Source of the DNA: a virus
Virus record (IMG/VR): IMGVR_UViG_3300034418_006340
Coordinates: 1 to 26,847 of that record
Reading direction: 5' to 3' (one strand)
Length of the DNA: 26,847 nucleotides
The notes below the pieces were generated by a model that was given only the letters and a program-made list of their open reading frames with translations, was not told the origin of the DNA and searched no databases. The translations under genes and the position numbers were made by a program. Of this stretch, positions 2,759 through 23,060 are shown piece by piece (positions within the stretch are counted from its first letter, which is position 1; every line of letters starts with the position of its first letter).

Positions 2759-3190
2759 TTATCTGTATTTATATCCGTTTCTAACATAATAAAGACCTGC
2801 AAAGTCTGTTCCTCCCTGATACTTCTTTCCATTAGGATGGTGGTAATCAATCTCTGTAGAGTCTGCTGTATTCACATAGTACCCTATCTTAGCCCACTTT
2901 GCTTCTTGTTGTAGATGCGGGGTCCACTTATTATAGAAAGCTATAAAGTCGTAGTACCCTAACCGCATATGTCCAAACTCAGTAATTACTTTATCTTTCT
3001 TAATTTCCCATTCATCAGCTATAGCTTCCTTTGTTGATACTCCTCTTTGTTCTTCCATAACAGATATGATGAAATCTTTGAGGTAGGGTTTAGCTAAAAT
3101 ACCTGTCCCCCCAATAAGAGTCTCAAAAGCTAGGAAGATACTAGATACGATAAGGATCCATTTCCACCAAGGGGTCTTTTTATTTTCCAT
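2759..3190 (-). CDS. Single-pass membrane protein of the lysis cassette, unknown function
   Basis: I choose the ATG at 3190-3188 (MENKKTPWW, 143 aa) over one 39 bases upstream: it gives an 11-base overlap with the holin stop (ATGGAAAATAA), the same overlap seen between the amidase and spanin-like genes, instead of about 50 bases. A basic, Trp-rich start (KKTPWWKW) leads into one membrane helix (about residues 10-32). The rest is soluble and likely periplasmic: a helical part (KEAIADEWEIKKDKVITEF), then an aromatic-rich C-terminus (GLYYVRNGYKYR). No lipobox and no known enzymatic motif. It could be a regulator of lysis or a superinfection-exclusion protein; neither can be shown. Confidence 0.7.
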   Translation of the reverse strand: MENKKTPWWKWILIVSSIFLAFETLIGGTGILAKPYLKDFIISVMEEQRGVSTKEAIADEWEIKKDKVITEFGHMRLGYYDFIAFYNKWTPHLQQEAKWAKIGYYVNTADSTEIDYHHPNGKKYQGGTDFAGLYYVRNGYKYR

Positions 3191-3704
3191 CTTTAAAGTA
3201 TTTCTGCAACCATTGGGGTAATAAGGCAATTAGTTTACGAGTAATAGCTTGGAGGCCTAGGACAAACTTAGAAGGTTTACCAACTGCTGTTAGATTTTCC
3301 CAGATACTAAATGCTTCAATAACAGCTGCAGTATATATAACTAGCTCAGTTAAGCTAAAAACTCTTCCGAGTATATCAGAAGGTTCTCCAGAGAAAAGAA
3401 AATAACCTTCAATGGTGGCAAATACTACAATACCTATTCCATATTCATAAGTCTTTTTCCAAGTTTGTCTTAATAAATAACTTTTTATTGATTTCCAAAA
3501 CAGTTTCTTAAGAGGATTAAAAGAAACTTCCTTTTCATAAAGGCTTTTCTTAATCCCTGTTAAGAGGTCTAAGAAGATTAAAATAGCGAGGCCTATCAAG
3601 GCAAATTGGACATTGAATAGTATCAAGAGTAAAGGACTAGTGAGTAGAATAGTTGCTATCTTTTTTGGTGTAAAAAGTGCTTTAGCTATAGTAGGGAATG
3701 GCAT
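3180..3704 (-). CDS. Phage holin, holin_4/TcdE-like family (putative)
   Basis: A 174-aa protein with several hydrophobic segments (about 15-31, 33-47, 88-105, 117-134). The segment LIFLDLLTGIKKSLYEKEVS carries the D-x-x-T-G-x-x-K core typical of the phage_holin_4_1 (TcdE/phi29-type) group, followed by a second basic region (KLFWKSIKSY) and a C-terminal amphipathic basic helix. The family forms inner-membrane lesions that release or activate the endolysin. It lies two genes after the amidase, behind a 47-base gap holding a TACCTTTG box, so it may be transcribed separately from the amidase for timing. The protein is slightly longer than typical members (about 130-150 aa). Confidence 0.78.
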   Translation of the reverse strand: MPFPTIAKALFTPKKIATILLTSPLLLILFNVQFALIGLAILIFLDLLTGIKKSLYEKEVSFNPLKKLFWKSIKSYLLRQTWKKTYEYGIGIVVFATIEGYFLFSGEPSDILGRVFSLTELVIYTAAVIEAFSIWENLTAVGKPSKFVLGLQAITRKLIALLPQWLQKYFKDGK

Positions 3705-3763: not shown

Positions 3764-4342
3764 TTTCTTTTTATTTCCGAAGATTTTTAATTGGATATTT
3801 AGATGTATGGTTTTATCCAGTACACCGTAGCCTAACATAAATATATGATCCTTCTTTGTCTTAAATCCTAATGTTGGGGCTATACCGAGGGTACTAGTAT
3901 TCCCATATAGATTTACCCCTCCAGTAATAGCCCAGGTATCTTTATATATGGTTTCTTTTGTCTCTATAATAACACTATCTGTGGTATGTATATATTTTGG
4001 AAACTTTGGTAGATAAGTAAAGTTTTGGTCTACTAAGGTACCATCTCTCTTTACTTGCGTAAAGATCTCTCCATCTAAGAGAGAATCATTTACTGCAGTA
4101 GTATAATTGATTATACTACTATCCTCTGAGCTAGGGATACTATCTATCACTGTAAGATGTTTAATGATAATAGAATCCTTGTAGAAGGGTATTGTGTCTG
4201 TATGTGTTTTATATGTAGTTTTTACCTCTGTGATAACCACAGGCTTGGTACCATTAGGAGTACCACATCCTTTAAAGAAAAGGATAAGGATTAGTATTCC
4301 TATTATTGCAAATAGAAATAAAGTAGTTCTATTAATCTTCAT
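3752..4342 (-). CDS. Spanin-like membrane-anchored protein with beta-rich C-terminus (putative)
   Basis: A 196-aa protein with a short basic start and one hydrophobic helix (about residues 7-24) ending in KGCG. The middle (about 30-130) is a polar Thr/Asp-rich, strand-forming stretch (TTYKTHTDTIPFYKDSIIIKHLTVIDS). The C-terminal 60 residues (136-196) show alternating hydrophobic and aromatic residues with Gly turns (AITGGVNLYGNTSTLGIAPTLGF, then HIFMLGYG, then HLNIQLKIFG), like outer-membrane beta strands. It overlaps the amidase stop by 11 bases (ATGAAGATTAA) and sits where spanin genes sit. An inner-membrane anchor, periplasmic linker and outer-membrane-like end would suit a single-protein spanin. 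The Cys after the helix could be a lipobox, but Lys at -2 argues against. Gene confidence is high, function moderate. Confidence 0.68.
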   Translation of the reverse strand: MKINRTTLFLFAIIGILILILFFKGCGTPNGTKPVVITEVKTTYKTHTDTIPFYKDSIIIKHLTVIDSIPSSEDSSIINYTTAVNDSLLDGEIFTQVKRDGTLVDQNFTYLPKFPKYIHTTDSVIIETKETIYKDTWAITGGVNLYGNTSTLGIAPTLGFKTKKDHIFMLGYGVLDKTIHLNIQLKIFGNKKKVQK

Positions 4343-5027
4343 GTTGATCTTCCCAATTTTTAATTCCCTGCACTATTGCATCAATTAAGCTAGTTTTCCA
4401 TTCTTCAGACATCATCCTAACTACTTCTAGTTTATGTGTGTGAAAGCCTGCTTCAATAAGGATAGCAGGCATAGTAGTATGCTTAAGAACATAGAAGTGG
4501 GCCTCTTTGTCTTTATCCCCGTCACTAGCTTTGTCAAATCTCCACTTAACTGTTTTTTCAAAGTTATACTCTAACTCCTGGATTACTTCATTAGCAAAAA
4601 AGTCTGAATTAGTTTGCCCCACTGAAGTATATACAGAGATACCTTGTCCTGGCATCCATACATCCCCCATGCCGTGGGCATCAGAGTGCATAGAAATATA
4701 AACACAAGGGCGAGACTTGCCCAAATCATTGGCTCTTCTAACTCTTTCTTTAAGAGAGATATCGAGATACGAATCAACAATATCAACAGAATCAATGTTA
4801 GCATCGTCTAAGGCTTTCTTTAATCGGTTTATATTATCTCTGTTGTTTACCCCTTCATAGAAACAACTTCCATCTTCAAACTTTGGGCTTCTTTTACCTG
4901 AGGTTACGTATTCTCCTGTTTTAGGGTCTGTACCCCCATGCCCTGGGTCTAAGATGTATAAAAATTTACTAGGTGCTTTCTTCTTAGCACTGGTAAGTTC
5001 CTCACCTGCTTTTTCAGCTTTACTCAT
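4332..5027 (-). CDS. N-acetylmuramoyl-L-alanine amidase (Amidase_3 family endolysin)
   Basis: A 231-aa zinc hydrolase that cleaves the amide bond between N-acetylmuramic acid and the peptide stem of peptidoglycan. The Zn ligands and catalytic residue of the Amidase_3 family are all visible: H30 in LDPGHGG, E58 in FYEGVNN, H114 in ISMHSDAH, and E192 in LIEAGFHTH. There is no signal peptide and no membrane segment; the first 20 residues are Lys/Ala/Glu-rich and probably a flexible tail. There is no separate cell-wall-binding domain, usual for phages of Gram-negative hosts. It opens the lysis cassette and overlaps the spanin-like gene; export through the holin is inferred. Between the EGVNN and NHSDAH-type motifs the enzyme follows the usual order and length. 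Confidence 0.93.
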   Translation of the reverse strand: MSKAEKAGEELTSAKKKAPSKFLYILDPGHGGTDPKTGEYVTSGKRSPKFEDGSCFYEGVNNRDNINRLKKALDDANIDSVDIVDSYLDISLKERVRRANDLGKSRPCVYISMHSDAHGMGDVWMPGQGISVYTSVGQTNSDFFANEVIQELEYNFEKTVKWRFDKASDGDKDKEAHFYVLKHTTMPAILIEAGFHTHKLEVVRMMSEEWKTSLIDAIVQGIKNWEDQHED

Positions 5028-12565: not shown

Positions 12566-13765
12566 TTATTTAAAAGTTATAGTTTTTAAACTTTCACCAA
12601 TTTCCGCAGCAGTACTTCCAGTTTGAACATGGTCAGCTACTCCGCTTCCAGCTCTTCCTGGTTTTCCAAAAGAGGAAGTGGAAAGAGCATCAGTGAAACT
12701 TTGCGTAGCTTTAGTTGTTCCTACCTTAATAAGTTTATCAAAATTGGTAAACCCTTTAGTAAGTACATGCAGAGCATGAAGTTTAAATTTATAATCCTCG
12801 TCATTTTCATACTTATCCATTACTTCATTTAGAGGAGAATCTTCTTTCATCTTAACTGGCGTTGTCATAGAAGAAAAAATCTTATCCTTAGTAGGGGTAG
12901 TAATCTTAATCCCAGGAAGGATCTCAGATGTTTCCTCAAGCTTTGATTTTAAAGCTGCAATAGCTTTTTGGCTTGATTCCTGTCTCTGAGTAGCTGCTTC
13001 TTTGTCAGCGGCAATTTTGGCTTGAATTTGCTTTTCCTCGTGAGCAACAAGGTCTTCTCTAGCTTGAAGAGCATCTTCTACACCTGTATCGCTTTTGACA
13101 GATAATACAGCATATTTTTCTGCTTTCCCTGCATCAAACCCTTGAGCTATAAAACTTCGTTTCATTAACTCATACTGTAGATTCTGATTAACTTTAATCT
13201 CCTCTTCGTTTAGGTTCTTATATAGGTCAGCGTTATGTTTTCTTTCTGCAAATTCAGGTTGAGGTATCCCCGCCTTTAATGCTTCTAAATACTCCTTTTG
13301 ATTTTCATTTAATGTAGCGTACTCGTTAGTCTTAATCTGCTTAGCGATAGCTGACATTAAATCCTCTGTTGTTTTTATCCCATTTAATTCTTCTTCATCT
13401 AGTGAAGAAAAAACTCCTGCTTCCGTCAAGGCCGAGGCAAAGGAAGTAAATATCTCATCTTGAGAAGAGGGAGAAGACCTATCAGGTTTTGTCGCAGGAG
13501 TTTGGGAAGTAGTTTCTGAACCATCTTTTCCCTCTGAATCTTCTTCCGTAGAAGTAGTATCCAAGATAGTTTCAGCATTTGCGAGGGCATCTAAATCTAT
13601 TCCTTCGTCTCCACCTTTTGTATCAGTGGTGATCTCTGGAACTGTGCCATCATTAGTTTCTGTTTCTGTACCTGTTGTATTCTCTGAAGTTTCCCCCGAA
13701 TCTACAATTGGTGTCTCTGAGTTAGCGAGTTCTTCCAAATCTACGCCTTCAAAAATGTCTCCCAT
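12566..13765 (-). CDS. Acidic scaffold-like protein
   Basis: A 399-aa protein between portal and capsid genes. The first ~110 residues are acidic and disordered (Glu/Thr/Ser/Asp/Gly-rich), containing two copies of one motif: GVDLEELANSETPIVDS at 7-23 and GIDLDALANAETILDT at 55-70. The middle (about 110-300) is helical, with a likely coiled coil (LVAHEEKQIQAKIAADKEAA, then QKAIAALKSKLEETSE). A C-terminal helical region (SPLNEVMDKYENDEDYKFKLHALHVLTKGF) is followed by a Gly/Ser-rich tail. This layout matches scaffolding proteins, which form the internal core for capsid assembly. It starts 27 bases from a TATATTTG box in a 106-base gap, so it may have its own promoter with the capsid gene. Confidence 0.75.
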   Translation of the reverse strand: MGDIFEGVDLEELANSETPIVDSGETSENTTGTETETNDGTVPEITTDTKGGDEGIDLDALANAETILDTTSTEEDSEGKDGSETTSQTPATKPDRSSPSSQDEIFTSFASALTEAGVFSSLDEEELNGIKTTEDLMSAIAKQIKTNEYATLNENQKEYLEALKAGIPQPEFAERKHNADLYKNLNEEEIKVNQNLQYELMKRSFIAQGFDAGKAEKYAVLSVKSDTGVEDALQAREDLVAHEEKQIQAKIAADKEAATQRQESSQKAIAALKSKLEETSEILPGIKITTPTKDKIFSSMTTPVKMKEDSPLNEVMDKYENDEDYKFKLHALHVLTKGFTNFDKLIKVGTTKATQSFTDALSTSSFGKPGRAGSGVADHVQTGSTAAEIGESLKTITFK

Positions 13766-16353: not shown

Positions 16354-18666
16354 TTAAGAAGGAAAATTCCACTTTCTTTGTCCATGGGCAGTTTGTATAG
16401 GTTTAAAGTTCCTAGCAAAAAAGTCATCATCTGCTATAGTCTTTACCTTATCTCTCTGCTTCTTCTCTGCGAACTTAATCTTATCTTCCTTTAAAATCAT
16501 TAACATTATTAATGCTGAGACTCTATCAAAGTTTCCATCAGGATTAAAGTTGATTAGTTCCTTAAGTAACCCTTGGCTCCTTATTCTATGTAGATTAAGT
16601 ACCTCACTTCCTTCCTCTTCTCCATAGGCGGGTTCTAGTAGCCAATCTAATATTAATCTTAAGCCGTAGGCATTAACAGGTTTGGAAGCTGTAGTTCCTT
16701 TAGCTTTATTCCCTATCTTACTTATTGTAATATCCGCAACATCTCTAAGAGATTCGGGAGTGTCACATAGTAAGTGTGTAGAGCTCTTCTGGTCATAGTA
16801 TGAGTAGAGCCCTTTTTTGTTATTCTCATAATTGTGTTCTGTTTTATAGAAAATATTAAGTTTTCTACAAATTTCATAGAATTCTTTGGTACCTCTCCTT
16901 CCTGTATACTCTGCTACTAATCTACCTGTCCACATATCTAGGACCCAAGTAGATCCTAAAGAGGTAGTTACAGAAGCATCGTCATCATAAGTATCTGTAC
17001 CTTGTAGGTATCTACTTCTGAAGACATTACCCATAGCATCTTTCTTAGGCATTTCAAATACCTCTATAACACCAGGGCGATTCTTATTATCTTTTACTGG
17101 CCAATCCTTCTCTAAGGTGTTAGCATTAGCATGTTCTAGTTTTAGGTTTCCTTTGTCATCCCAGATAAGCTCTATATGCCAATGTGCATTTTCAAACCTA
17201 TGAGGGTTAGCCTGTACTTCTGCAAGATGTGCTTTAAGCATAGCCTGTGGGAACATAGCTCCTTTGGCATTTAAAAACATCTCCGAAGGAATCATTGGGT
17301 AGTTCATCATCTCTAGAGATAGAGCTGATGGATCTTTAGATTGTCTCTTCTTATCTCTCTCTGCTTCTTTAAAAGCAGTAGCTCCTTCTACATCAGTATT
17401 ACCATTCTCATCCTTAAATTGGTTCATGGCATATATACAGGATACAAACCATCCTATCTTACCTGATCCTTCCCATTCATCTTCAAAGGGTACAAAGTCA
17501 AAGCCAATAGGGTCTCTAAATATAACCTCAGACTCTTGGATTTTCTCTACGTTACCGCCTGTACCAAGATAAACTGTAGACCCAAATTTCCAACTTCCTT
17601 CCATCTGACAGGCAGTATTGGAACCATGGACAGTAAGTACATTAGGTAAGAGTCCTACCTCCTCTACTGCTATGACTCCAGGTCTTGTTCCCGCTGCAGC
17701 TTCAGGATTCTCTGTAGTAAAGATACCATGCTTAATGTTGGAACCTGTTCCAAATTTTTTCCAGGTTCCTCCCATCTTCTTCTCGTACTCATGTCTCCAT
17801 GGGTTCTTCATATTATTAGGGGCCAATGTCCCTGCCATAGTCTTCATAAAAGGAGATGGGGCATAATCATTGGTGCCAATTCCCCACTCTCCAGGTAGAT
17901 TGTCTAAAGCTTCTCTAGTTTTAGATAATATGTCAGAAGATTTAGAGGATATAGCAGCTCCTACAAATATCTCTGTTTTATATGGATCCTTAATAGATTG
18001 TTCATCATATACCTTAGCTCCGTCAAATAAAAGTTCATGAAGTACGATACCAACTCCTACCATAAAAGATTTACCAAATCCCCTGGATCCAAGCATGAAT
18101 AAGTTTAGGGCTTGGTTATTATATAAAGGATGCCCTATAGGTTTATGGTGTAGCTCCCTAAGCATTTCCCTAGCGGGTTTATAGGCTTTTAGTTCTCCTT
18201 TAGAATTATAGCATTCTTTGGAGAGCTTCATAGTGGATCCTTTTAAGACTTCTAAGATTCCTCTATCTGCAGAGAACTCTTCGTCTTTGGAGAACCCTGA
18301 AAATCCTCTAGCCTCTAGCCAGTTGTAGAAGAACTCCCACTCTATATCTCTTAGGTAGGGGCGCATCTTTTTCTTAGGGGCTGACTTAGGCCCATTTTCA
18401 TCCTGGTGTAGGATAGTTCCAAAGTTTACATAAAAGTAGAGGTTTCCTGGGATAAATCTCCAAGAGTCTCTTTCTTTCTCAAGTTCAGCAGGGATGTCCT
18501 CATCTACATTAACTTCTATTGAAGCATCGTCTATAGACCAAAGTCCTTCAATACATCTCTTTTTTTGTCTCTTCCAGTACTTAATATACTGCAAGGACTT
18601 AGGATGTATTTCAGGAACCTCTGAAATTAAAAAATTATTTCTATTATGTATCTTTACAAAGCTCAT
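16354..18666 (-). CDS. terL: Terminase large subunit
   Basis: A 770-aa DNA-packaging motor with ATPase and nuclease domains. Walker A is GSRGFGKS at residues 193-200; Walker B is VIAVEE at 331-336 with the catalytic Glu; a conserved TENPEAAAGTRPG precedes it. The nuclease half shows an RNase H-like strand with GTDTYDDD (D558) and a later segment SYYDQKSSTHLLCD, then YGLRLILDWLL. The N-terminus (about 1-130) is an extension typical for long terminases of crAss-like and other Bacteroidota phages. The start overlaps the upstream gene stop by one base (TAATG), and the gap after it leads into the portal gene. Both enzymatic centres look intact. Confidence 0.93.
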   Translation of the reverse strand: MSFVKIHNRNNFLISEVPEIHPKSLQYIKYWKRQKKRCIEGLWSIDDASIEVNVDEDIPAELEKERDSWRFIPGNLYFYVNFGTILHQDENGPKSAPKKKMRPYLRDIEWEFFYNWLEARGFSGFSKDEEFSADRGILEVLKGSTMKLSKECYNSKGELKAYKPAREMLRELHHKPIGHPLYNNQALNLFMLGSRGFGKSFMVGVGIVLHELLFDGAKVYDEQSIKDPYKTEIFVGAAISSKSSDILSKTREALDNLPGEWGIGTNDYAPSPFMKTMAGTLAPNNMKNPWRHEYEKKMGGTWKKFGTGSNIKHGIFTTENPEAAAGTRPGVIAVEEVGLLPNVLTVHGSNTACQMEGSWKFGSTVYLGTGGNVEKIQESEVIFRDPIGFDFVPFEDEWEGSGKIGWFVSCIYAMNQFKDENGNTDVEGATAFKEAERDKKRQSKDPSALSLEMMNYPMIPSEMFLNAKGAMFPQAMLKAHLAEVQANPHRFENAHWHIELIWDDKGNLKLEHANANTLEKDWPVKDNKNRPGVIEVFEMPKKDAMGNVFRSRYLQGTDTYDDDASVTTSLGSTWVLDMWTGRLVAEYTGRRGTKEFYEICRKLNIFYKTEHNYENNKKGLYSYYDQKSSTHLLCDTPESLRDVADITISKIGNKAKGTTASKPVNAYGLRLILDWLLEPAYGEEEGSEVLNLHRIRSQGLLKELINFNPDGNFDRVSALIMLMILKEDKIKFAEKKQRDKVKTIADDDFFARNFKPIQTAHGQRKWNFPS

Positions 18667-19262
18667 TAGAATTGTCCTGTTTCACCTGCTGACTCTGCGG
18701 CTCCTCCCCTTAAGGTACCTTCCGTAGATTCTTTGATTAATTTCTCTTTGATATTTAAAAGTTGCTCAAATACTTTACCTGAGTTAACTACCATCTTATC
18801 TAATTGATCTGCAGTTCCTTTTATTACTCTTCCTTTATCGTCTACACTATCCATAGAGTATGGAGTTTTGCTAATAAAATCTCCTCGTTCTACTAATTTC
18901 TTTTCATACCTCACTAGTTCTTTTTGTGCTATAGTAAGTACTCTATTTTGGTATTCTTCTATAAGTTCCACAATTTCTTTGTGTTCCCAATTAAATTTTT
19001 TATCCTTTAAGAAATCTTCAGCTATGAGTTTTCTTTTCTCTTTCTCTACAGTATTCTTCCAAGGGTTAGAATCATGGGGGTCACAACAAAGAGCAATGGC
19101 CCACATCAATTTACTTGATTGGGCCTTTTTGCTACTTTTGTCTTTTTGGTAGACATCCTCGAATAGTTTAATGGTTCTCATTGCTGGATTAGTTATCCAG
19201 TAGTTCTCATTTGTATTCCAGTGTCTAGTTATACTATTTGGGTTTATATTATTTTGGCTCAT
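18666..19262 (-). CDS. Candidate terminase small subunit or terminase-associated protein
   Basis: A 198-aa soluble, helical protein. It has NPAMRTIKLFEDVYQKDKSSKKAQSSKLMWAIALCCDPHDSNPW in its N-terminal third, a basic helical middle (WKNTVEKEKRKLIAEDFLKDKKF), a long helix (HKEIVELIEEYQNRVLTIAQKELVRYEKKL) and a Gly/Ala/Ser-rich C-terminal tail. It lies directly before the large terminase with a one-base overlap, the usual place for a small terminase, and it could oligomerise through the long helix. A clear helix-turn-helix was not seen, so the role is inferred from position only. Its start overlaps the upstream gene by 14 bases. Confidence 0.72.
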   Translation of the reverse strand: MSQNNINPNSITRHWNTNENYWITNPAMRTIKLFEDVYQKDKSSKKAQSSKLMWAIALCCDPHDSNPWKNTVEKEKRKLIAEDFLKDKKFNWEHKEIVELIEEYQNRVLTIAQKELVRYEKKLVERGDFISKTPYSMDSVDDKGRVIKGTADQLDKMVVNSGKVFEQLLNIKEKLIKESTEGTLRGGAAESAGETGQF

Positions 19263-19575
19263 TCCTCATTATAGTTTCTTGGGAAGTGCTTATATCTAAT
19301 ACTTTAGAAATAGGCCCTGCTTGTTCCAAGAGGTCTTCTGGAATGCCATCCCCTGTGGTTATAATAGTTTCTTCAGCAACGTCTTGGAGAAATGCATTTA
19401 TCATATTCTTTAGACGTACTTCTTGAATAGATGAGAATTCCATGACTTCTAACATCATGACTCTTCCCTCTTCTTTATCGCAATAAGCTATTGCTCTCAT
19501 CCCCTTAGTTCTTAAATCATCAAAGAACTTAGTTATGGATTGATTTATTTCCTTCTCTACCATATTATTCGTCAT
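19249..19575 (-). CDS. Small phage protein between chaperonin and terminase genes, unknown
   Basis: A 108-aa soluble acidic protein. The first half is helical and strand-forming (EKEINQSITKFFDDLRTKGMRAIAYCDKEEGRVMMLEVMEF), the second has a helix (QEVRLKNMINAFLQDVAEE) and an Ile/Thr-rich stretch. No recognisable motif. It overlaps the GroEL-like stop by 11 bases and the next gene by 14, so it is translationally coupled in the chaperonin-to-terminase chain. A folding, adaptor or packaging accessory role is conceivable but not shown. Confidence 0.65.
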   Translation of the reverse strand: MTNNMVEKEINQSITKFFDDLRTKGMRAIAYCDKEEGRVMMLEVMEFSSIQEVRLKNMINAFLQDVAEETIITTGDGIPEDLLEQAGPISKVLDISTSQETIMRNEPK

Positions 19576-21100
19576 CTTTAATTATTACACAATTAGTAGT
19601 AAAAATAACTCCTGCAGCTCCCACTGCATTTTGTAATGTTGAAGTTAATACTAAAGCTGGATCTAAGATAGAGTCTCTTTTTACTTGCTCCTCTAAAGTT
19701 GCTAAATTCTCTCCATTGAATGGGATATTTCCATTACTTAACAAAGCTTCTGTTAAGCTTTTCAGAGCTATACTAAGATGTAGCATAGGGATGTCACTAT
19801 TTGCAGAAGACAAATCGTGTAGCTGACAAGCTACTTCTACATAGGTCATAGTTCCACCAGGAACAACTCCTTCTTCTAGTGCGCTTCTTACAGCCCTGAT
19901 AGTATCGTCTAATCTGTCTTTCTTCTCTTTAACTTCTATTTCATTACTTCCTCCAACATAAATAACTGCAGCACCTGCGGATAACATTGCTAGACGCTTC
20001 TTATAGTTCCCAGCAAGTCCCTCTTTGTCCTGATCTATTTTATCTTGATAGTATTGAATCCTAGCATGTACTACATCTTCTTCTCCTTTTCTACCAATGA
20101 TATTAGTTTCTTTAGTAGAGATTTCTACCATTTCTGAAGAGCCTAAGTGAGATGCTGTAATTGACTTTAGGCTTGTCCAACCTACTTTAGAGGTTATAGC
20201 CTTGGCCCCTGTTACAATAGCTAAGTCTTCTACTGCTTCTTTTCTTGCATCTGCAATAAAGGGAGCACGTATAAACTCTATAGGCAAATCAAAATTTGTT
20301 TTGTTGTGTTGTATAATAGTTGCTGCTACTCCAGTTAGATCATTACAAATTACAAGGATAGGAGAACCTAATTCCTTTTGTAAATGAATTACAGCTAATG
20401 CGTCCTCTTGGGTAGTAACATCTAAATCTGTCACAAGTATTCTACATTCTTTATGACGAACTAGGGTTTTCCCATTTGCTAAGGAGGGGATAATATGGCT
20501 TCTATCTAATTTAACCCCTTTAGTTGCGTCTAGCGAAGTAATATAACTTTTAGAATCTGTTACTGTAACAATTCCTTCTTTTCCTATAATAGAAAACGCT
20601 TCTTGTACTAATCCTGCCATTTCAGAATCTCCATTACAAGCGACTAATGCTACGCTATAGATATCTTTATCAGTGGTAGGTGTGGCTAAGCTTCTTACAG
20701 CTGTAACTGCTACTTTTGAAGCCGCTTCTAATTGTCTTCTATATTCTGAAGTCTTTTCTGGATGTTCCTCTAGATACTCAGAAGCTAACTTAATTAAAGC
20801 TGCAGATAGTACAGAAGTACCAGTAGTACCATCTCCTGCAATCTTAGCCGTTTCTTCTGCAGCTCCTTTAATAGTTTGTGCTGCTACATCTTCTATAGGG
20901 TCCCTTAAATTTATTGCCTCAGCAACTGTGACTCCATCTTTAGTAATATGTGGGGGGTTGTATATCTTTGTGATAGCTACATTAGTCCCATAAGGGCCAA
21001 AGGTAGTAGACACAGCATCAGCTGTATCTATACTACCCTTTAGTAACTTTTCTTTAACTTCCTTTCCCTTTACTATTCTACTAGTCTCTCTTATACCCAT
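19565..21100 (-). CDS. Phage-encoded GroEL-like group I chaperonin
   Basis: A 511-aa chaperonin (E. coli GroEL has 548). Equatorial ATP-site motifs are kept: GPYGTN at 35-40, KDGVTV at 54-59, GDGTT at 89-93 (D90 = GroEL D87), DDTIRAVRSALEEGVVPGGT at 398-417 (D399 = D398) and ILDPALV at 478-484 (D480 = D495). The apical domain is intact in outline (EFIRAPFIADARKEAVEDLAIVTGAKAI at about 275-302). Against E. coli GroEL the groove patch Y199/Y203/F204 reads His202/Ser206/Leu207, and the GGM-repeat tail is absent, the protein ending KDDE. It starts 10 bases inside the GroES-like gene and is followed by terminase and head genes, suggesting that it folds virion proteins. Confidence 0.93.
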   Translation of the reverse strand: MGIRETSRIVKGKEVKEKLLKGSIDTADAVSTTFGPYGTNVAITKIYNPPHITKDGVTVAEAINLRDPIEDVAAQTIKGAAEETAKIAGDGTTGTSVLSAALIKLASEYLEEHPEKTSEYRRQLEAASKVAVTAVRSLATPTTDKDIYSVALVACNGDSEMAGLVQEAFSIIGKEGIVTVTDSKSYITSLDATKGVKLDRSHIIPSLANGKTLVRHKECRILVTDLDVTTQEDALAVIHLQKELGSPILVICNDLTGVAATIIQHNKTNFDLPIEFIRAPFIADARKEAVEDLAIVTGAKAITSKVGWTSLKSITASHLGSSEMVEISTKETNIIGRKGEEDVVHARIQYYQDKIDQDKEGLAGNYKKRLAMLSAGAAVIYVGGSNEIEVKEKKDRLDDTIRAVRSALEEGVVPGGTMTYVEVACQLHDLSSANSDIPMLHLSIALKSLTEALLSNGNIPFNGENLATLEEQVKRDSILDPALVLTSTLQNAVGAAGVIFTTNCVIIKDDE

Positions 21101-21405
21101 GTTCCCATAAATGCGTTATCCCGTACTAACAAATATTCTTCTTCTGATATGTACATTCCATTAGCTATTGCTCTAGCATCTGTAACTACGATATCTCCTG
21201 CCTTGAAATCTAATACGCCCTCTCCTACAGCTACTACCTCAATGTTTTCCCAGATAGGTCCCAGAGCTTTAGTTACAAATTCCTGCCTTTGCTCTTCAGG
21301 TAATTCCTCTGCTCCCTTTTCTAAATCGTCTATTTTTCCAAATAGAGGATTCTTAATTAGCACATAATGACGTGCTGGTTTCATTGTTCTTTTTTCACTT
21401 CCCAT
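21091..21405 (-). CDS. GroES-like co-chaperonin
   Basis: I choose the ATG at 21405-21403 (104 aa), which follows an AATTAAATTGAGAAAA leader and clears the upstream stop by 10 bases; an in-frame start 51 bases further up would overlap that gene by 41. The beta-barrel core follows GroES: MKPARHYVLIKNP (8-20), EVVAVGEG (56-63), FKAGDIVVT (67-75), EEYLLVRDNAFMGTWV at the end. Where GroES has its mobile loop with the GGIVL contact, this protein has a long charged, helix-prone stretch (residues 23-50, DDLEKGAEELPEEQRQEF). It overlaps the GroEL-like gene by 10 bases. The pair is read as a matched phage chaperonin system; the GroES assignment is good but less certain than GroEL. Confidence 0.8.
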   Translation of the reverse strand: MGSEKRTMKPARHYVLIKNPLFGKIDDLEKGAEELPEEQRQEFVTKALGPIWENIEVVAVGEGVLDFKAGDIVVTDARAIANGMYISEEEYLLVRDNAFMGTWV

Positions 21406-21415
21406 TTTTCTCAAT

Positions 21416-21697
21416 TTAATTGTTATTAAAAAGACCACTCTTCCCTTGTTGGTCATAAAAAGAAGACATCTGCTTCTTTATTTCATTAAAACTTGCTAAT
21501 ACTACTATAATTTCCTGTGTAACTAAATAGAGGGCTGTCATTGGTTCCTCTACTCCTTCTAAGGGCCCTCCTAAATGTTCCTCATAGAAATTTACAATTG
21601 ATGGATGTATTGCGATTTTATTTCTTATCTGAATATCAGGTTCTATATCACTAGTCTGTATCCATATCCTTGTCAGAATCATTTCTTGCATAGGCAT
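21416..21697 (-). CDS. Small phage protein before the chaperonin genes, unknown
   Basis: A 93-aa soluble protein starting MPMQEMILTRIWIQTSD; ATG codons two and five residues later are equally possible starts, all overlapping the IHF-like gene by 32-47 bases. It has an Ile/Asp-rich N-terminal strand region, an NFYEEHLGGPLEGVEEP segment, and a long hydrophobic helix (MTALYLVTQEIIVVLASFNEIKKQM) that may be amphipathic rather than membrane-spanning. No known motif. It is 10 bases upstream of the GroES-like start, so it could be part of the chaperonin operon. Confidence 0.62.
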   Translation of the reverse strand: MPMQEMILTRIWIQTSDIEPDIQIRNKIAIHPSIVNFYEEHLGGPLEGVEEPMTALYLVTQEIIVVLASFNEIKKQMSSFYDQQGKSGLFNNN

Positions 21698-21908
21698 TCA
21701 TTTTAATTATTTTATGAGGACGAGCTACTAAAAGCCCTAAATGCTTAAATCTAATATTTAAGAAAGTAGAGGGGGTACCAGCTTCTCCCTTTTTTGTAGC
21801 TTCCCTAGCGCATTGGAACTGCGACTCAACTATTGCCTTTACTACATCCACTGGTAACCCAACCTCTAATGATATATCATTGACTATTGATAGTACTCTC
21901 TTTTGCAT
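21651..21908 (-). CDS. IHF/HU-like DNA-binding protein (putative)
   Basis: An 85-aa protein. Residues 5-40 form the two-helix start seen in HU/IHF-type proteins (SIVNDISLEVGLPVDVVKAIVESQFQCAREATKKGE), followed by a strand segment NIRFKHLGLLVARPHK that matches the 'f.GlG.f.v.p' core, and a short basic, then acidic tail. It is shorter than HU (about 90 aa) and lacks a full DNA-binding arm, so it may be a reduced form. IHF-like genes are a known part of the assembly region in crAss-like phages. It could bend phage DNA for packaging or late expression. Confidence 0.7.
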   Translation of the reverse strand: MQKRVLSIVNDISLEVGLPVDVVKAIVESQFQCAREATKKGEAGTPSTFLNIRFKHLGLLVARPHKIIKMNAYARNDSDKDMDTD

Positions 21909-22173: not shown

Positions 22174-22542
22174 CTACTTTTCTAAAACAAATATAAATTT
22201 TAGTTCAACTTTCTTATCATCAGTCATTACTAAGTAAGTTTCTGAGATAGTGTTGTCTTCTTTAACTAATCCTTTGGCTCTTAAGCCACTTAATGCGTTC
22301 CTGAATATCGCAGTTGATATATGTAATTGTTTCTCAATATCTCTCCTAATCTCGGGCCCTAGAACTATCTTAGACCTGTCAATAGGATCTTTTATTTCCT
22401 TCTTTACATAATTGTAATACAATAGCTCAGCAAAAACGTCTGCCTCTCTAGTTCTTATATTTTTTAAGAACGGTCTTATCATCTCCACGTAGGCCCTAAA
22501 GAACTTTCGTGTCCCTTGTGTAAATGTGTACTTCTTCTCCAT
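22174..22542 (-). CDS. Winged-helix DNA-binding protein (putative regulator)
   Basis: A 122-aa protein. The N-terminal 60 residues are helical and basic (GTRKFFRAYVEMIRPFLKNIRTREADVFAELLYYNYV). Residues about 62-95 read as a winged helix: LGPEIRRDIEKQLHISTAIFRNALSGLRAKGLV, with the recognition helix in STAIFRNALSGLRAKG, followed by a two-strand wing (EDNTISETYLVMTDDKKVELKFIFV). The family pattern resembles small regulators conserved in late regions of Bacteroidota phages. It is placed before the IHF-like and head genes, so it may act on late transcription; the TAYCTTTG boxes in this window are possible targets (inference). Confidence 0.68.
   Translation of the reverse strand: MEKKYTFTQGTRKFFRAYVEMIRPFLKNIRTREADVFAELLYYNYVKKEIKDPIDRSKIVLGPEIRRDIEKQLHISTAIFRNALSGLRAKGLVKEDNTISETYLVMTDDKKVELKFIFVLEK
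22188..22195 (-). promoter_or_regulatory. Weak -7-like box (TATATTTG) near the end of the winged-helix gene
   Basis: TATATTTG on the minus strand lies inside the 3' end of the winged-helix gene, 40 bases before the 57-aa gene start. It matches TAnnTTTG but has no -33 partner, and A/T-rich coding ends can produce it by chance. Listed as a weak possibility. Confidence 0.2.
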
Positions 22543-23029: not shown

Positions 23030-23060
23030 AAAAAAAGACCAGTAACATAATTACTGGCCT
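23030..23060 (-). terminator. Rho-independent terminator after the fibre gene block
   Basis: On the minus strand CCAGTAA (23057-23051) pairs perfectly with TTACTGG (23045-23039) across a 5-base loop, followed within two bases by a run of T (TCTTTTTTTG). It ends the transcript of the tail-fibre genes at 23189-26847. Confidence 0.8.

Follow-up and report, generated by a model that had tools for sequence, protein, structure and literature searches.

To dock on GroEL, GroES normally uses a mobile loop that lacks fixed structure; the IVL tripeptide of this loop touches GroEL residues L234, L237, and V264 (PMC3514286). This tripeptide docking is a highly conserved protein contact. In E. coli GroEL, mutation of N265 blocks GroES binding (PMC3514286), while Y203 and V264 bind substrate (PMC10723157). 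The phage T4 co-chaperonin gp31 folds gp23 (about 56 kDa) on host GroEL (PMC6318259, PMC3012670). The chaperonin encoded by phage EL shows no binding to E. coli GroES (PMC7185714), and those of phages OBP and AR9 function without a co-chaperonin (PMC9598537). Among crassviruses, Gp15 of crAss001 is already annotated as '10kDa chaperonin', and GroEL is present in phi14:2, cr108_1, and cr111_1. We found no mention of a chaperonin in the crassvirus papers examined; a study of virioplankton chaperonins (Marine et al., ISME J) lay outside that scope, and prior notice is possible.

The window analysed here is a 26,847-base virus fragment from IMG/VR. Because its capsid, portal, terminase, and tail ring proteins match those of crassviruses, the window is assigned to Crassvirales, close to Cellulophaga phage phi14:2 and crAss001. 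In particular, profile searches identified CrAss_Ring_2 (1.9e-46) and CrAss_Ring_3_4 (1.4e-40) in addition to the head and packaging families of Table 1, and the nearest large terminase (TerL) among phage records is that of phi14:2. The original prediction, which placed a phage-owned GroEL/GroES pair in the packaging and head gene run of a crAss-like phage, is borne out in this respect, as are the identities that it gave to TerL, the portal, and the major capsid protein (MCP). The genes that it named small terminase (TerS) and scaffold are conserved and syntenic, but these names are positional and a convincing family match is absent. Likewise, the pair does lie ahead of the packaging and head genes, but a 108-aa gene separates GroEL from the putative TerS. 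A gene of this kind was found between GroEL and the putative TerS only in the clade of the window (also L096, L099, L103, and L107). Its product gave no convincing family match in profile searches, and it may belong to the chaperonin cassette as a third component. Upstream, a terminator-like hairpin may separate the conserved block from the preceding genes. Elsewhere in the window, a PolB-type 3'-5' exonuclease gene (PHROG_403, 7e-61; positions 1090-2007) sits amid tail ring and lysis genes, not replication genes, and the lysis genes, encoding an Amidase_3 endolysin (4332-5027) and a holin-family protein (3180-3704), lie inside the structural gene run.

Table 1. Features of the chaperonin and head gene block, with positions in the window
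Feature	Position	Strand	Basis
Terminator-like hairpin, 11 pairs and T run, upstream of block	23036..23060	-	Consensus match only
Protein in the place of crAss001 Gp13 'VpsT-like regulator'; first gene of conserved block	22174..22542	-	Position
Small protein in the place of crAss001 Gp14 'protein HU'	21651..21908	-	Position
93-aa protein just before GroES	21416..21697	-	ORF; elsewhere only in L096 (strong) and L014 (weak)
GroES-fold co-chaperonin (predicted), 104 aa	21091..21405	-	PHROG match, predicted structure, Foldseek
GroEL-like group I chaperonin, 511 aa	19565..21100	-	Pfam, PHROG, and PDB sequence matches
108-aa protein, function unassigned	19249..19575	-	ORF; 11-base overlap with GroEL stop
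Putative small terminase	18666..19262	-	Position; syntenic in 99 related loci
Large terminase, 770 aa	16354..18666	-	PHROG 6.8e-115; 50% identity to phi14:2
Portal protein, 811 aa	13872..16307	-	PHROG 3.7e-141
Putative scaffold/head gene	12566..13765	-	Position; conserved upstream of MCP
Major capsid protein, 498 aa	11051..12547	-	Pfam Crass_capsid 2.2e-141; PHROG 5.1e-99

The two chaperonin reading frames have exactly the coordinates predicted, on the minus strand, and overlap by 10 bases; for the GroES-like frame, alternative starts at 21384 and 21456 would give proteins of 97 aa and 121 aa. The GroEL-like protein is a group I chaperonin, as predicted. It matches Pfam Cpn60_TCP1 over profile positions 2-488 of 490 (3.6e-40; 138.5 bits against a curated cut-off of 34.3), PHROG_5725 (GroEL, 6.9e-95), and 140 PDB sequences at E<=0.001. 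In the alignment, it keeps E. coli residues D52, D87, G88, T89, T90, D398, and G415 of the nucleotide site, which had been described as intact, but differs at three positions (L31F, T91G, and S151A), and these changes might weaken its ATPase. The positions of D52, D87, and D398 are intact throughout the window clade, which comprises eight members with a support of 100/100 in the GroEL tree. The C-terminus of the window protein bears no GGM tail. A split with a support of 99/98 sets the GroELs of crassviruses and some other phages apart from those of bacteria. A recent capture of a host GroEL was rejected since the crassvirus proteins fall outside the bacterial clade (99/98), although their deep, long-branch placement is unsure.

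The 104-aa neighbour is, as judged from its predicted structure, a GroES beta-barrel. Its only profile match is to PHROG_3188 (GroES, 1.4e-4); Pfam, including Cpn10 at its cut-off, and PDB sequences yielded no match, and sequence search found no close GroES relatives. The AlphaFold2 model, built with 43 homologues in the alignment, has a pLDDT of 92, and its top Foldseek matches in the PDB are all Cpn10/GroES (best 6.5e-4), with T4 gp31 lower down. Consistent with this assignment, the VIA Z score is 9.8 against M. tuberculosis Cpn10 (79 residues, 3.2 A), 8.7 against 3nx6 (64 residues, 1.9 A), and 7.4-7.8 against T4 gp31, compared with at most 7.1 for dehydrogenases with a similar barrel. Furthermore, a profile-profile comparison of the crassvirus GroES family with bacterial GroES gives 98.3% probability (1.7e-14). 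The predicted identity therefore stands, and the possibility of an unrelated fold is not supported. The Pfam Cpn10 profile detected no GroES above its cut-off in 12 crassvirus records, so a missing Cpn10 match is not evidence of absence. The window-clade GroES alignment is too diverged for use as a search profile. Among other crassvirus families, the GroES model built here matches DAC15; cr4_1 and cr10_1 gave no match to it, though cr4_1 has a gene annotated as 'putative chaperonin'.

To place the pair in its phage group, 173 loci were mapped with profiles grown from the window, and 66 distinct loci, including the window and with identical TerLs counted once, carry the VpsT-to-TerL block in a sample that is biased to relatives and includes incomplete contigs. 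A GroES-like gene precedes the terminase in 55 of the 66, as detected with a profile grown over four rounds that could drift, but whose matches stay syntenic. GroEL is present in 21 of them, between GroES and TerS in 14 and upstream of VpsT in seven. The pair is therefore common in this group, and its description as unusual fails. On a TerL tree that covers Steigviridae within Crassvirales, the distribution of GroEL takes at least six gains or losses when starred branches are counted, or eight on the tree as drawn. No GroEL was found in the whole genome of crAss001, nor in the 20-kb contig of L118, a close relative of the window, which covers 2.8 kb upstream of VpsT; in relatives, GroEL can lie 2.1-3.8 kb upstream.

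The Steigviridae crAss001, phi14:2, cr108_1, and cr111_1 share with the window both the gene families and the order VpsT, HU-like, GroES, TerS, TerL, portal, MCP. However, the GroEL gene of phi14:2, cr108_1, and cr111_1 is located upstream of VpsT, and its product retains 4-6 of the nine groove sites described below, whereas the window has GroEL between GroES and TerS and a rebuilt groove. As a separate observation, cr111_1 (MT774387.1), cr128_1 (MT774392.1), and cr116_1 (MT774389.1) are among the crassviruses in which homing endonuclease genes interrupt the capsid gene and leave it in two parts. In a broader set of phage GroEL loci, GroES lies within 500 bases of GroEL in 32 of 95; this set contains a few crassviruses and possibly includes prophages or host contigs. 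Flavobacterium phage immuto and Bacteroides phage DAC19 have adjacent GroES and GroEL genes, but outside a crassvirus packaging operon, with a GroES found by the bacterial GroES profile and with canonical grooves (YSYFLLLVV and FSYFLLLVV). GroEL further adjoins a GroES-like gene in two small environmental phages, L276 (MW202828.1) and L281 (MW202566.1). In the latter, a 39-kb phage, a 107-aa GroES-like gene (weak match, 0.0096) and GroEL are followed by terminase and portal, apparently an independent instance of the layout of the window; unlike the window, this phage is by annotation no crassvirus, and its groove is mostly kept.

What looks new here, from sequence comparison and structure prediction, is a rebuilt interface between GroEL and GroES. 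We compared nine sites of the apical groove (Y199, S201, Y203, F204, L234, L237, L259, V263, and V264), which are conserved in bacteria and unused in the Pfam family definition. The window groove reads H I S L L I A Q H and is identical to E. coli at one of the nine. The median identity is 0.5 sites in the eight GroELs of the window clade (range 0-3), compared with 9 in bacteria (n = 81) and 5 in other phages and other crassviruses. Specifically, none of the eight retains Y199, Y203, or F204, while most still have a hydrophobic residue at L234 and L237. Overall divergence does not fully account for this loss, since the crassvirus GroELs of L033, L041, L053, and L055 also branch far from bacteria yet retain 4-6 sites. 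The window GroEL keeps N265, and some of the old GroES interface may thus remain.

On the GroES side, the window model has two predicted helices (residues 25-33 and 37-51) in place of the canonical mobile loop, with a pLDDT of 91-95 over residues 21-50, although AlphaFold may impose order on a loop that moves freely in the unbound protein. In contrast, the GroES of L118 has a GIHL motif and a pLDDT of 74-77 over residues 11-40. No hydrophobic tripeptide was found in the window loop, and it is absent from seven of the eight window-clade loops, L110 having a late MYV run; an 'LP'-like step, then a helix-like stretch, and then a W-IEI strand recur in six of the eight. Across the sampled loci, 4 of 21 loops from GroEL carriers contain a hydrophobic tripeptide, compared with 13 of 18 from loci without detected GroEL (Fisher p = 0.0013, ignoring relatedness). 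This statistic varies with the motif chosen: a stricter one, [GSADNT]G followed by hydrophobics, which was tried first, gives p = 0.087, likewise ignoring relatedness. L090 and L092 carry GroEL together with canonical-looking GroES loops.

The reading that we favour, and judge on balance to be probable, is that the pair forms a working ATP-driven chamber with its lid, which is co-expressed with the packaging and head genes, folds late proteins, and by its rebuilt docking is largely private. The GroEL-like protein would form an ATP-hydrolysing ring, as suggested by the kept nucleotide-site residues and D398, and the fold, adjacency, and gene overlap of the GroES-fold protein suggest that it caps this ring. 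In the window clade, a helical hairpin on the lid (helices predicted) and a re-made apical groove would replace the contact between IVL loop and aromatic groove, so that engaging host GroES or host GroEL would be unnecessary. By analogy with gp23 and T4 gp31, the client would be one of the late proteins, and the 498-aa capsid protein, close to gp23 in size, is the likeliest candidate; the terminase and portal are larger. At 770 aa and 811 aa, these two exceed the substrate size usually said to fit the cage. Where a crassvirus has a GroES-like gene and no detected GroEL, its lid probably serves host GroEL, as in T4. A bolder version, that one crassvirus lineage jointly swapped its docking for the hairpin and new groove and so acquired a natural orthogonal chaperonin, dedicated to phage late proteins and insulated from host GroEL/ES, is put forward tentatively, as an idea with a reasonable but lesser chance of being right.

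The pair might instead not be private, with the phage GroES mainly re-lidding host GroEL like T4 gp31, and the phage GroEL serving as an extra chamber that also takes host GroES. The far wider spread of the GroES-like gene than of GroEL (55 versus 21 loci), the lid-only genome of crAss001, and the match of gp31 to the window GroES fold all point this way. The resemblance has its bounds: T4 gp31 and RB49 CocO are, as proposed for the window, phage GroES-fold lids for a capsid protein, with very low sequence identity and a longer loop, but gp31 works on host GroEL, while the window has a phage GroEL next door. For the window clade we regard re-lidding as unlikely, given that its lid has lost the tripeptide for docking on host-type GroEL and its GroEL the matching groove. 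That same loss of the canonical motif would suit a GroEL acting alone beside a GroES-fold protein with another job. Phages EL, OBP, and AR9, which like the window encode GroEL homologues, offer the precedent, their chaperonins being reported as co-chaperonin-free, whereas the window GroEL adjoins a GroES-fold gene. We give this lidless arrangement a small chance: GroES and GroEL are adjacent, overlapping or nearly touching, in all eight window-clade loci, both sides of the interface have changed together, and both genes are under purifying selection where measurable. Specifically, dN/dS between L099 and L103 is 0.10 for GroEL and 0.10 for GroES, so both are maintained there. This value, the full length of the protein, and the intact D52, D87, and D398 across the clade also make it improbable that GroEL has taken on a new role, such as that of a scaffold or of a holdase with no folding cycle, to which its highly diverged apical domain, the T91G and S151A changes, and the missing GGM tail would lend themselves.

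A lineage in which both docking sides appear rebuilt while the nucleotide-site aspartates are kept would make it testable how a chaperonin pair gains specificity, along with why many phages bring only a lid and which crassvirus proteins need folding help. Named proteins allow direct comparison: the window and L099 show the rebuilt form, L090 combines GroEL with a loop of canonical appearance, crAss001 has only the lid, and so does L118 as far as its contig reaches. The GroES loops of L041, L053, L033, L055, L021, and L024, which have GroEL next door and a groove mostly kept, have a strongly acidic character (net -5 to -10), which may be a further type of interface change.
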